Source of the DNA: Ignavibacteriales bacterium
GTDB taxonomy: Bacteria > Bacteroidota > Ignavibacteria > Ignavibacteriales > Melioribacteraceae
DNA length: 47,744 nucleotides
NCBI GenBank assembly: GCA_016177735.1
Contig: JACOUS010000001.1
Location: 1 to 47,744, forward strand
Reading direction: 5' to 3'
Shown here: positions 6,950 to 47,744 of the stretch, piece by piece
Layout: every line of letters starts with the position of its first letter
Numbering within the stretch: position 1 is the stretch's first letter
Position numbers and translations under genes: made by a program
The notes under the pieces: model-generated
What the model saw: only the letters and a program-made list of their open reading frames with translations
What the model was told of the DNA's origin: nothing
Database searches by the model: none

Positions 6950-7148
6950 ACAAATTGCGGCTAAAGCCGATTTTATTTCTCTTAAACTAACCCACGAGAT
7001 ATCACCGCTTTGCGGGATTCCGTTTACACGGAAAATCTCGTGGCAATTTCGCCTGAATTTAGAAATAATTGCCACTATCCCGCTTATCGGCGGGCAAGCT
7101 TTAGATAGTGGGAGGTTTATCAATCCATAACAACCGGACTTTAGTCCC
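6950..7148. repeat. Composite hairpin repeat, copy 1
   Basis: A string of hairpins. GGC-TAAA-GCC lies near 6958-6970. A long stem CCACGAGAT (6992-7000) / ATCTCGTGG (7035-7043) encloses two inner hairpins (CCGC-TTT-GCGG and TTCCGT-TTAC-ACGGAA). Next come a CCCGCTTATCGGCGGG palindrome with CAAGC tail (7079-7101) and GGACTTTAGTCC (7137-7148). The 53-base core 6991-7043 is identical at 15401-15453. The open frame on the minus strand here is only repeat sequence. Confidence 0.8.
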
Positions 7149-7367: not shown

Positions 7368-7911
7368 AACACACCCCTTCCGTTCCCCTCTGTAGAGGGG
7401 AAACTCTTTCGCTTTTTTTTGTAATTGAATTTGTTAGCAGCATTAAGTTCTACCCGTGAATCATTTTTTTTACATAAATATTTTTAATAATGCGGCTCTT
7501 TCTCCTCTGTAGAGGGGAAACTCTTTCGCTTTTTTTTGTAATTGAATTTGTTAGCAGCATTAAGTTCTACCGGTGAATCATTTTTCTTACATAAATATTT
7601 TTAATAATGCGGCTCTTTTTCCTCTGCAGAGGGGAAACTCTTTCGCTTTTTTTTGTAATTGAATTTGTTAGCAGCATTAAGTTCTACCTGTGAATCATTT
7701 TTCTTCCATAAATATTTTTAATAATGCGGCTCTTTCTCCTCTGTAGAGGGGAAACTCTTTCGCTTTTTTTGTAATTGAATTTGTTAGCAGCATTAAGTTC
7801 TACCGGTGAATCATTTTTTTTACATAAATATTTTTAATAATGCGGCTCTTTTTCCTCTCGAGAGGGGAAACGAAGAGTTTATCCCGTTGTTTTTTAACGG
7901 GAGGGTGTGTT
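7368..7911. repeat. 117-bp tandem repeat array flanked by inverted ends
   Basis: Four near-identical units begin at 7387, 7504, 7621 and 7738 (periods 117, 117, 117, then 116 because of a shorter T run), followed by a partial fifth core at 7854. Each unit starts with a palindromic CCTCTnnAGAGGGG, then TTTCGC, a poly-T, GCAGCATTAAG and TAATGCGGC. The core dinucleotide varies: GT, GT, GC, GT, CG. The array is bracketed by AACACACCC-CTT-CCGTT at 7368-7384 and its near complement AACGGGAGGGTGTGTT at 7896-7911. No coding capacity is evident. Confidence 0.9.
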
Positions 7912-12671: not shown

Positions 12672-13391
12672 TTACCAATTAGATACCACCGCCAGTAAAA
12701 TATCCTGTGTAATATTTTCGATTGCGTCATCAATTGCATCTTGCCGATCTTTTGTAATATCGCCGTCGGTTGGATAATCTGCGTAGTTCGAAAATGTTCT
12801 TTCCAAAATTGTCTGCCGTTTTATCAAATCTCTGTAAACAACGCGCACGTTAATCGTAATTCTTCTTTTAGAAATTGTTTCGTTTCCGGTAACTGCCGAA
12901 GCCGCGTCTGTTAATGAAACAATAGTTCCTTCGAGTAATGCATCTGCATTTGTTCTGTCGGCGATCAACAGAGAATTATCGTCAATAAATTTTTGAACAA
13001 GGCTGTTCGTGAATTTCTCGCTCACGTTAAATTCGCCGGTACCGCTTCTATCATTGAATAAAGGAACCGCAATTGTTTTGAGGTGCGGTGGAACAGATGC
13101 ACCGGTGAATGAATAACTGCACGCTTGAAAGTTTATTACAATAAAGAGTGATGCAAACAATAAAAATGGCAGTGCACGAATTTTATTGTGACTAAGCAAA
13201 TTCCGGCTAAAGCCGCTTCCAGTTTTTTGAGATTGTCCCACGAGATAAATCTCGTGGCAATTTTGTCTAAGTTTAGTTGCAATTGCAACTATCCTTAAAT
13301 AGCGGGCAACAAATAAACTAAACAATAGGAACTCCAGTCCCGATTTGCTTAAGTCCGAAATTTCATAAAAATATTTTGTCGTGTTTGTCAT
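12672..13391 (-). CDS. lptE: LptE-like LPS-assembly lipoprotein (start uncertain)
   Basis: The conserved part is a lipoprotein: a hydrophobic stretch RALPFLLFASLFIVINFQA then a lipidation cysteine (residue 91 of the open frame). YSFTGASVPPHLKTIAVPLF follows, with NDRSGTGEFNVSEKFTNSLVQKF, typical of the Bacteroidetes/Chlorobi LptE family. LptE plugs the LptD barrel and helps place LPS in the outer leaflet. The frame from the only ATG (13391) puts about 70 residues in front of the signal peptide. That extension is the translation of composite repeat copy 2 (13200-13345). The true start may be TTG at 13199 or another weak codon near 13181; no Shine-Dalgarno settles it. The gene follows the sigma-54 activator stop by four bases. 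Confidence 0.8.
   Translation of the reverse strand: MTNTTKYFYEISDLSKSGLEFLLFSLFVARYLRIVAIATKLRQNCHEIYLVGQSQKTGSGFSRNLLSHNKIRALPFLLFASLFIVINFQACSYSFTGASVPPHLKTIAVPLFNDRSGTGEFNVSEKFTNSLVQKFIDDNSLLIADRTNADALLEGTIVSLTDAASAVTGNETISKRRITINVRVVYRDLIKRQTILERTFSNYADYPTDGDITKDRQDAIDDAIENITQDILLAVVSNW
13200..13345. repeat. Composite hairpin repeat, copy 2 (inside the lptE open frame)
   Basis: It shares with copy 1 the GGCTAAAGCC hairpin (13205-13214), the CCACGAGAT (13238-13246) / ATCTCGTGG (13249-13257) stem, the following GGCAATT, a GCGGGCAA remnant (13309-13316) and a GGAACTCCAGTCCC block. The two inner hairpins are absent: only AA separates the stem arms. Confidence 0.75.
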
Positions 13392-15349: not shown

Positions 15350-15535
15350 ACGGAGTTACTCAATTGTGGCTAAAGCCTTTTTCATTTCTTTGTAAATTAT
15401 CCCACGAGATATCACCGCTTTGCGGGATTCCGTTTACACGGAAAATCTCGTGGCAATTGTTATATAAAAATGCACTTGCCACTATCTTTTCCCGAAGGTT
15501 CGAAGGACTCCTATGGAGGATACCTTTGGCAAGAT
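15350..15535. repeat. Composite hairpin repeat, copy 3
   Basis: GTGGCTAAAGCC at 15366-15377 is followed by a 53-base core at 15401-15453 identical to 6991-7043, including both inner hairpins. Next comes CTTGCCACTATC with a matching GGCAAGATAG near 15526-15535 around a CCGAAGG / GAAGGACTCC segment. It separates the MBL hydrolase from the SPOR gene. Confidence 0.8.
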
Positions 15536-17705: not shown

Positions 17706-18105
17706 TTGACTTAATTAATTTTCGCGTGCACAAAAATAATATATATAGTACGAATTAGGAAATGAGGACAAGTACGATCCGCCGTAGGCGGAACGAAGGA
17801 CGAAGAAAGAAATACGATTTACGATCCGCCGAAGGCGGAACGAAGGACGAATTTAAAAGTACCAAATAACAAAAACCAAACAATGTCCAAAAAACAATCC
17901 GCCGCGGCGGAACAAAAACTTGAAAGTCGAAACCATTTGAAAGTTCGAGGGTTGAGACAAAGATTCAAATCCTTGCGGCTTCTGACTTCTACACTAAACA
18001 GTGCGAAAAATTTTCATGGTTTTTAAAAATTTTCACCATTACTGTTTGAAAACAAGCTGTTTTCTAAATAAATAACTGGCACAATATTTTAAGTATTAAA
18101 GGGCT
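17706..18105. repeat. Repeat-rich intergenic DNA with three CCGCC palindromes
   Basis: No gene. TCCGCCnnnGGCGGA palindromes sit at 17778-17792, 17825-17839 and 17898-17911 (the last with a 14-base form). They are followed by AACGAAG, AACGAAG and AACAAAA. The surrounding low-complexity phrases (AAATAACAAAAACC and similar) recur at 18900-18970. Confidence 0.75.
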
Positions 18106-18864
18106 ATGAATTCCGAACAATTGAAGAAACTTGCCGCAGAAAAAGCAGTCGAAGAAATTAAATCAGGTATGATTTTAGGGTTGGGCACCGGTTCAACTGT
18201 TCATTTTGCACTTGATGAAATATCAAATAAAATCAAAAACGGAGAATTGAAAGAGATCGTGTGTGTTGCAACTTCAATTCATACTGAAGAAAAAGCGAAG
18301 AGACTCGGCATTCCGTTGACGACTCTGAATAAACTCTACGGGAGTTACGATCCGCCGAAGGCGGAACGAAGTACGATCCGCCGTAGGCGGACAAAAATCC
18401 ACCATCCGAAGCTAATTGATTTGACGATTGATGGCGCCGACGAAGTTGACAATGATTTGAATCTGATTAAAGGCGGCGGCGGCGCACTGTTACGAGAAAA
18501 AGTTGTTGCACAAGCCAGCAAAAAAGTTTTAATAATTGTTGACGAATCAAAACTATCAAATAAACTTGGCGAAAAATTTTTTGTGCCGGTTGAAGTTTTG
18601 CAATATTCTGTGAACGCAGAAAAAAAATTTTTGGAATCATTTGGTGCAAAAGTTACGATAAGAAAAAATGAGAGCGCCGAAAGTTTTATTACCGATGAAA
18701 ATAATTTTATTCTCGATGCAAACTTTGGTATGATTAACAATGTGGAAGAGTTAAATAAAATTTTGAACGATAGAGCGGGCATAGCAGCGCACGGTTTGTT
18801 TGTAAATTTATGCGATGAAGTTTTTTGTGCGGACGCTGAAGGCGTGAAAGTTCTAAAAAAATAA
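18106..18864 (+). CDS. rpiA: Ribose-5-phosphate isomerase A with in-frame palindrome insertion
   Basis: The enzyme interconverts ribose-5-phosphate and ribulose-5-phosphate in the pentose phosphate pathway. Family motifs are intact: LGLGTGSTVHFAL (24-36), IDLTIDGADEVD (about 105-116, catalytic D), LIKGGGGALLREKVVA (about 120-135) and a C-terminal GLFVNLCDEVFCADAEGV. At 252 residues it is roughly 20 longer than usual. The excess is YGSYDPPKAERSTIRRRRTK, between LTTLNKL and IHHPKLIDLT. That segment is encoded by two CCGCC/GGCGG palindromes (18351-18365 and 18377-18391) identical to those in flanking intergenic DNA. The frame stays open, so the protein may work with an extra surface loop. It reads opposite to miaB. 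Confidence 0.93.
   Translation: MNSEQLKKLAAEKAVEEIKSGMILGLGTGSTVHFALDEISNKIKNGELKEIVCVATSIHTEEKAKRLGIPLTTLNKLYGSYDPPKAERSTIRRRRTKIHHPKLIDLTIDGADEVDNDLNLIKGGGGALLREKVVAQASKKVLIIVDESKLSNKLGEKFFVPVEVLQYSVNAEKKFLESFGAKVTIRKNESAESFITDENNFILDANFGMINNVEELNKILNDRAGIAAHGLFVNLCDEVFCADAEGVKVLKK
18336..18405. repeat. Two palindromic elements inside rpiA
   Basis: TCCGCCGAAGGCGGA (18351-18365) and TCCGCCGTAGGCGGA (18377-18391) are separated by ACGAAGTACGA, the same text that links palindromes outside the gene. They add about 21 codons without a frameshift. Confidence 0.8.
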
Positions 18865-19100
18865 TTACGAAGTACGATCCGCCGTAGGCGGAACAAAGTA
18901 CGAATTTAAAAGCAACAAATAACAATCCGCCGCGGCGGAACAAAAACCAAGCAATTTTCAAAAAACAAAAACAAAGAAATTCAAACTAGAAACTAATGAT
19001 AAGTATGAAGTACGAATTTAAAAACCAGTCCGCCGAAGGCGGGCAAGCATACAGAGTTGATGTGATTTGTGTGTTTTTAAAAAGATTTAAAAGAAAAATA
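18865..19100. repeat. Intergenic palindromes downstream of rpiA
   Basis: TCCGCCGTAGGCGGA at 18878-18892, TCCGCCGCGGCGGA at 18926-18939 and TCCGCCGAAGGCGGG with CAAGC tail at 19028-19047. At 18917-18949 the host phrase AAATAACAAAAACC, seen uninterrupted at 17863-17876, is split by the palindrome plus ACAA. Confidence 0.75.
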
Positions 19101-34440: not shown

Positions 34441-34601
34441 GAATTGCCACGAACTTTAGTTCGTGGGACACTTTGCAGCAAAAACATTGGCTTTAGCCAC
34501 AATTTCAGTACAATTTTGGCTGAAGCCCCAAAATTTAGGAGTTTATTTGCCACGACTTATCACCGCTGAGCGGGATCCCGTTTACACGGGAAAAGTCGTG
34601 G
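34441..34601. repeat. Composite hairpin repeat, copies 4 and 5 in opposite orientation
   Basis: Copy 4 (minus-oriented) has CCACGAACT (34447-34455) / AGTTCGTGG (34458-34466) with a 2-base loop, followed by GGCTTTAGCC at 34489-34498. Copy 5 (plus-oriented) has GGCTGAAGCC near 34518-34527, then CCACGACTT (34550-34558) / AAGTCGTGG (34593-34601) enclosing CCGC-TGA-GCGG and TCCCGT-TTAC-ACGGGA. Stem bases differ from copies 1 and 3 but remain paired. Confidence 0.8.
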
Positions 34602-34677
34602 CAGCGGATAATATTATTTTTGCGTAACGCGAGTTAATAAGAAAGTTTGGGACAGGTAGAAGGGAATTAGGAAGAAG

Positions 34678-47652: not shown

Positions 47653-47744
47653 CAGGCGTTCTAACCAATCCGCCGTAGGCGGACAAGCTGAACAGAGTTT
47701 ATCCCGATGATTTTTATCGGGAACCCCTTTTAAAAATTCCAATA
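47653..47744 (-). pseudogene. 5-prime fragment of tRNA-Asp with two palindrome insertions
   Basis: CAGGCGTTCTAACCAA (from 47653) and CTGAAC (47688-47693) match the 5-prime half of the intact tRNA. The 17-base flank that follows the tRNA 5-prime end (TTTTAAAAATTCCAATA at 47614-47630) is repeated at 47728-47744. Between the two blocks lies TCCGCCGTAGGCGGACAAG (47669-47687). After CTGAAC, TACGA is replaced by a 30-base insert AGAGTTTATCCCGA / TTTTTATCGGGAA. The window ends here. Confidence 0.75.

Follow-up and report, generated by a model that had tools for sequence, protein, structure and literature searches.

Rickettsia palindromic elements (RPEs) are the closest precedent for the repeats reported here. 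They are described as palindromic repeats that occupy both intergenic DNA and, in frame, solvent-exposed positions of conserved proteins (PMC2229807, PMC3767692). In the case of RPE-4, RPE-6 and RPE-7, unlike element types occupy one site in different species, and the published account leaves the choice between an insertion hotspot and divergence undecided (PMC3767692). Direct repeats of 7 bp form another described class: the cyanobacterial heptamers, GGGAATC in Xanthomonas and TAACTGA in Beggiatoaceae are reported as scattered, mainly intergenic and under-represented in open reading frames (ORFs); a few copies do occur in Beggiatoaceae ORFs, and a PurC gene from Bacteroidetes contains one (PMC4692102, PMC4679880). 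REP sequences are described as palindromes with the tetranucleotide GTAG or CGTC at one of their two ends (PMC3733652).

The window analysed in this work is the whole stretch of 47,744 nucleotides at positions 1 to 47,744 of contig JACOUS010000001.1 (Ignavibacteriales bacterium, assembly GCA_016177735.1; genome G000). The ORF at 18106-18864 (+ strand) encodes ribose-5-phosphate isomerase A (RpiA, 252 aa), as indicated by profile searches (TIGR00021, E=6.8e-68; PF06026, E=9.5e-55; both above cut-off) and by an AlphaFold2 model with the RpiA fold (pLDDT 95, pTM 0.89; top PDB match 4gmk_A, E=1.4e-29). DGADE (residues 109-113; 18430-18444, +), KGGG and about 26 more columns were invariant in all 47 rows of an alignment; the Asp residues of DGADE presumably correspond to the catalytic Asp residues in the E. 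coli enzyme. Profile and structure matches to the window RpiA were interrupted from residue 76 to approximately 103. Solved RpiAs matched up to residue 75-76 and resumed at 101-104, with 2-3 chain residues between both matched blocks in the four solved-structure alignments. The interruption corresponds to a variable loop of 28 aa (residues 76-103; 18331-18414, +), as compared with 4 aa in relatives with a GLGTG-to-DGADE segment of 60 residues; the window segment has 84. The original prediction had located an insert just before DGADE, in agreement with these results; the whole variable loop is however wider than the 18336-18405 span it gave, and the gain is 24 residues rather than about 21. In the AlphaFold2 model, helix 74-79 precedes the loop and strand 104-110 follows it; the loop has a pLDDT of 65-73 and is predicted to be disordered. 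It joins the N-terminal end of that strand, and DGADE starts at residue 109, towards the opposite end.

Sequence and genome pattern matches resolved the insert into two tandem units of 26 bp, each built from a 15-bp palindrome and an 11-bp linker. Palindrome unit 1, TCCGCCGAAGGCGGA (18351-18365), is the GAA form and is translated as (D)PPKAE(R), in a frame where GTA or TTA would be a stop codon. It is followed by the linker ACGAAGTACGA (18366-18376, +) and by palindrome unit 2, TCCGCCGTAGGCGGA (18377-18391), a GTA form read in a different frame as (I)RRRR. Both palindromes and the identity of the linker to flanking intergenic DNA had been noted in the original prediction, and both points were borne out. 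A linker and palindrome lie directly 3' of the rpiA stop codon (18867-18892, +), the linker being exact at 18867-18877 and the palindrome starting at 18878. Other intergenic copies in the window were a GTA form at 17778-17792, a GAA form at 17816-17850 (+; palindrome 17825-17839), a copy with one mismatch at 19029-19043 and CGCGG-centred palindromes at 17898-17911 and 18926-18939; a remote copy with different flanks was found at 47669-47683. The linker-palindrome composite is intergenic 0.5 kb to either side of rpiA. Of all matches to the rpiA insert in this genome, the copy at 17816-17850, 0.5 kb upstream, was one of the best two, with 94% over 35 bp; going by this similarity, it is the likeliest local source of the insert. 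The event in the window could not be dated because no uninserted close relative was among the genomes compared; G001, the sole same-genus one, has no rpiA.

Genome-wide, TCCGCCN{0,10}GGCGGA occurred at 42 places as compared with 5 for the reversed pattern, TCCGCCNNNGGCGGA with at most one mismatch at 50 as compared with 3, and the linker at 54 as compared with 0. These reversed-pattern controls rule out chance palindromes. Fifteen linker-palindrome composites were found in G000: 12 are intergenic and 2 are those within rpiA; the remaining one encodes the C-terminal tail of a cytidylyltransferase (C16:84363, PF02348). Their centres were GTA in 12, GAA in 2 and TTA in 1, making GAA the rarer form. 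Among the matches listed, the G000 composite had 12 further places in its own genome and none in the 19 others.

We compared the GLGTG-to-DGADE segment in 62 complete RpiAs (the 47 aligned and 15 more). Its length was 60 residues in 41 of them and 58 in 4, these 4 all from another family of the same order, which gives 45 short segments; the other 17, the window included, had 67-129 residues. The long segments, spread over six genera, were of 84 residues in G000, 78 in G009, 72 in G007, 87 in G017, 73 in G068, 103 in G072, 129 in G073, 113 in G074, 81 in G075, 115 in G076, 95 in G077, 99 in G078, 67 in G086, 72 in G087, 87 in G091, 71 in G092 and 78 in G093. As the original prediction expected, the window insert was absent from the relatives aligned: its residues were found neither in the 45 short-loop RpiAs nor in the four solved-structure alignments, so that no distant RpiA among these encodes the same residues with unrelated codons. 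The 17 long loops were mutually unlike, ranging from 11 to 73 aa with a sequence that varied among species. The G087 loop was identical to that of Melioribacter sp. SKW195; NCBI places Stygiobacter and Melioribacter in Melioribacteraceae, Ignavibacteriota, and the lineage with long loops is probably this family.

The fragmented state of many of the assemblies compared could suggest an artefact of assembly, or palindromes arising by chance. We give this a negligible probability: the site is common to 17 assemblies, including the single-contig G009 and the near-complete G077 and G078, and the excess of palindromes over the reversed pattern is as given above. When the presence of an insert was mapped on an RpiA tree built without the loop, it required 2 changes as compared with a mean of 14 for shuffled labels. 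A single origin was recovered in only 6% of bootstrap trees, the backbone of the tree being weak. The long loop is older than the window insert, being common to six genera with a filling peculiar to each species, so that it was probably tolerant by the time the palindromes entered it.

The reading frame was kept in the window rpiA, as predicted, and all 17 inserts were stop-free multiples of 3 within a single open frame. Detection by open frames favours inserts that keep the frame; tblastn would also reveal frame-broken halves. The palindromes could form a stable RNA hairpin (-29.5 kcal/mol for 18336-18405; ViennaRNA, native sequence alone), which would suit an untranslated insert, whether lost by splicing, skipped by the ribosome or cut out of the protein. 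A segment destined for removal has no need to be stop-free and a multiple of 3 in 17 genomes, and we find this explanation hardly credible. The loop could also have been recruited for a function such as partner binding or regulation, as its retention in 17 genomes and six genera might suggest. Lengths of 11-73 aa, sequences unlike among species and the disorder predicted by AlphaFold2 for the window loop argue against such a role, which we consider very unlikely. In the model of the G073 protein, an ATCAGAA array was predicted to prolong the helix as far as residue 111, beyond which a stretch has a pLDDT below 50.

A second loop of RpiA, from DGADE to KGGG, had 13 residues in 58 of the 62 proteins. 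It was of 18 residues in G068 (L135), 23 in G074 (L145), 26 in G073 (L144) and 60 in G032 (L361), the filling in G032 being repetitive DNA of a different kind.

To describe the filling of the long loops, each insert was compared with itself at a distance of 7 bp. A lag-7 signal was detected in 10 of the 17 inserts, with 16-21 of 21 matches, a level equalled by at most 2 of 1000 dinucleotide-preserving shuffles. The other seven (G000, G007, G017, G086, G087, G092 and G093) had no significant lag-7 signal; in the window insert, whose filling is palindromic, 41 of 1000 dinucleotide shuffles reached the observed value. The repeated words included GAACGTT in G009, TTCTCAA in G068, G077 and G091, ATCAGAA in G072, G073 and G076, CATCCAT in G076, TTATCAA in G075, and CGTTTCC with CGTCTTC in G078; they thus differ among species, some being common to several. 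Palindromes were nested within the arrays in G077 (CCTACCGGCAGG) and G076 (GTCCTGAGCGCTAGCGAAGGAT). The 7-bp array is the commoner filling in relatives, and nested palindromes occur only in some. Clean 7-bp arrays are rare in bulk DNA, given the few tracts in the sampled DNA: a strict scan of samples totalling about 1.38 Mb returned 3 tracts at the first threshold, and relaxing the threshold to 18 of 21 gave 6 tracts at lag 7, of which G091 contributed 4; the other lags gave 1 (lag 5), 2 (lag 6), 3 (lag 11) or none (lags 8, 9, 10, 12 and 13). This level of 18 of 21 was reached by 7 of the 17 RpiA inserts, counted without a complexity filter.

To trace the origin of the inserts, we joined all 17 and searched 20 genomes with them by BLAST. 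Among the non-self matches listed, 70 of 132 fell in the insert's own genome, the permutation mean being 13.5 and the maximum 28 in 10,000. The excess was carried by G091 (19/26 listed matches), G000 (12/12), G073 (9/23), G074 (9/9), G077 (8/23) and G072 (6/13); no own-genome excess was seen among listed matches for G068 (1/13), whose words are widely shared among genomes, G078 (0/1), G009 (0/1) or G017 (0/2). An 11-mer comparison on DNA samples ranked the own genome first for just 4 of 15 sampled inserts (G000, G009, G073 and G091). In G009, GAACGTTGAAC occurred at 18 places, 2 of them within rpiA, as compared with 0-5 in seven other genomes and 0 for the reversed control in G009. Five of the 16 copies outside rpiA were within 12 kb of the gene; the copies in the window likewise lie near rpiA.

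These results bear on the possibility that the loop is merely tolerant and that replication slippage generates the repeats in situ, with nothing copied in. Arrays of 7 bp are able to grow in this way, polymerase slippage has been proposed for the abundance of heptamers (PMC4692102), and several inserts lack an own-genome excess. Slippage cannot yield one 15-bp palindrome with common flanks at 12 further places, nor the palindrome described below in RsmE of G077. As a complete account we regard slippage as possible but doubtful; it may well hold for the arrays and so complements the explanation favoured below rather than opposing it.

RpiA was not found throughout the family. A match was detected in 36 of 58 relatives searched and in 59 of 79 family genomes; the other 20, some of them incomplete, had no RpiA match. 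None was detected in G001. The description of RpiA as universally conserved in the original prediction was therefore too strong. RpiB (PF02502) was present in 23 of 25 genomes tested, the two misses being 72% and 79% complete. Since RpiB is also present and several relatives are without RpiA, RpiA is probably dispensable. In G069 (L287 / L146), a decayed 3' rpiA fragment adjoins another gene, an apparent loss of RpiA in progress. Together, the redundancy with RpiB, the 20 genomes without RpiA and the G069 fragment would suit a reading of the long loops as decay on the way to loss. The remainder of the protein indicates otherwise. In six unsaturated pairs (three further pairs were saturated), dN outside the loop was 0.083-0.164, dS 0.73-1.12 and dN/dS 0.09-0.15. 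With dN/dS of about 0.1 and invariant columns, RpiA outside the loop is under purifying selection. As DGADE and KGGG are invariant in 47 rows and all 17 frames are open, we consider decay unlikely; that RpiA is not essential may explain the tolerance of the loop rather than point to decay.

RsmE is the clearest second case of a repeat-filled loop. A lag-7 signal marked its loop before GPEGG in 11 of the 14 genomes, with no more than 19 of 500 shuffles reaching the observed value when each genome was judged singly, and with words that vary; no lag-7 signal was found in the other three, G000 (39/500), G009 and G074. The G077 and G071 proteins are 88% identical, and G077 has 7 extra residues encoded by a 21-bp palindrome between two TTCTCAA units. 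The core of this palindrome recurs 13 times in the G077 genome.

Repeats were also found in other proteins. In 20 loci around repeat copies, 29 stretches matched: 11 inside ORFs of at least 120 aa, 2 overlapping an end and 16 outside. We counted 72 copies of the palindrome GCCTRCCGGYAGGC, spread over 9 of 17 genomes, and none of its reversed control; 16 of the 59 copies examined were in ORFs of at least 150 aa and 43 were not. ORFs hit by repeats and carrying a Pfam domain included RsmE, methionyl-tRNA formyltransferase, a class V aminotransferase, a 2-oxoacid dehydrogenase E2 and a GH31 glycosidase; several hits were at protein ends, and the domain scan covered 12 of the 16 GCCTRCCGGYAGGC ORFs. 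An NTP transferase was hit at one common site in three species. In G000, a copy of TCCGCCTTCGGCGGA lies in frame in Mfd, between the UvrB-interaction and RID domains. In C-terminal sorting domains of T9SS from several proteins and genomes (L261, L263, L271, L317, L329), repeats enter one common hairpin region, ahead of SGVYFYRL-like segments.

Other repeats were observed outside proteins. An ACCTGCC..GGCAGGT palindrome occupies the D-loop position of tRNA 5' halves located upstream of an intact tRNA gene (tRNA-Thr at L317, L300 and L338; tRNA-Leu at L291, L308 and L316). Interruption of intact tRNA genes by the palindrome was ruled out, the sites being truncated halves beside intact genes. At L291 and L308, a small ORF for a GIY-YIG nuclease (PF01541; E=9e-17 and 1.1e-15) lies between the half and the intact gene, as in a homing-type element. 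The window also contains another hairpin-like intergenic repeat of about 66 bp, CCACGAGAT...ATCTCGTGG, at 6983-7048, 15393-15458 and 34541-34606 (71-97% alike); a related 55-nt family that overlaps its start at 13193-13247; and four tandem copies of about 117 bp at 7387-7886 (76-97% alike).

Collectively, we consider it highly probable that in this lineage the RpiA loop was lengthened and then filled and refilled, in frame, by short repeats of the host genome. The observations that bear on this reading are the common site, the unlike fillings, the open frame, the repeat matches in the same genome and the selection on the rest of RpiA. We infer a route for the spread of the repeats as follows. 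The loop before the DGADE strand would have been lengthened once or a few times, and then filled and refilled by each host genome's own 7-bp arrays and small GC-rich nested palindromes. The repeats would arrive by short-range copying or slippage; the arrays would change by slippage, and the palindromes would move by some route, probably over a short range. Most arrivals would be lost by breaking the frame or the fold, leaving survivors in tolerant surface loops, and the RpiA insert would be translated and close to neutral. Since the reading of a 7-bp array takes in all three frames, words that contain a stop in any of them would be expected to be lost. With somewhat less assurance, we favour the broader proposal that a whole family of free-living bacteria outside Rickettsiales rewrites protein loops (RpiA, RsmE and T9SS sorting domains) with genome-specific repeats, the 7-bp arrays being a renewable in-frame source (3 units are 21 bp, or 7 residues) within which palindromes nest, with words that differ among species. 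Odd residues in proteins of such genomes may be repeats rather than function.

In a search that covered few subscription journals, we found no published account of one loop refilled in 17 species, and LPAGRQ had no match in the literature searched. Unlike the published heptamers, the 7-bp repeats described here build RpiA and RsmE loops across a family, with species-variable words. Tandem 7-bp repetition beyond chance, found in 10 of 17 RpiA and 11 of 14 RsmE loops, sets these apart from the window insert, which does not exceed chance (41/1000).

Similarly to REP/BIME sequences with their RAYTs, the palindromes are short, GC-rich and dispersed. Genes for Y1_Tnp (PF01797) were present in 18 of 19 genomes tested, whether or not these bear inserts; G007 had none. 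PF01797 does not separate genomes with inserts from those without and does not single out a RAYT (Y1 transposase) as the mover. Where REPs have the tetranucleotide at one end, TCCGCCGTAGGCGGA has GTAG in its centre and the GAA form has no GTAG. To our knowledge, coding insertion is not typical of REPs. Yeast mitochondrial GC clusters are short GC-rich palindromic elements, some of which lie in frame within VAR1; unlike the present case, they concern an organelle genome and one main gene, with no 7-bp arrays.

The repeats of this lineage resemble Rickettsia and Wolbachia palindromic elements in being both intergenic and in frame in conserved genes (3 of 15 composites in G000 and 16 of 59 GCCTRCCGGYAGGC copies lie within genes or ORFs). 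The Rickettsia-like process put forward in the original prediction fits as a way of working; membership of the RPE class does not. RPEs are 100-150 bp long, as opposed to palindromes of 15-24 bp mostly nested in 7-bp arrays, and their hosts are Rickettsiales, whereas Ignavibacteriota is another phylum; the two are set apart here by length and lineage, not by sequence comparison. In the present case, the recurrence of largely different fillings at a single site in 17 species speaks for a hotspot, and the unlike words of RpiA and RsmE loops in related species make the question raised by RPE-4, RPE-6 and RPE-7 addressable. With many sequenced species, the rate of repeat entry, the loops that accept repeats and the replacement of loops become measurable. 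In-frame repeats that invade proteins have so far been described chiefly from Rickettsia and Wolbachia, to which this family adds a second, distant lineage.
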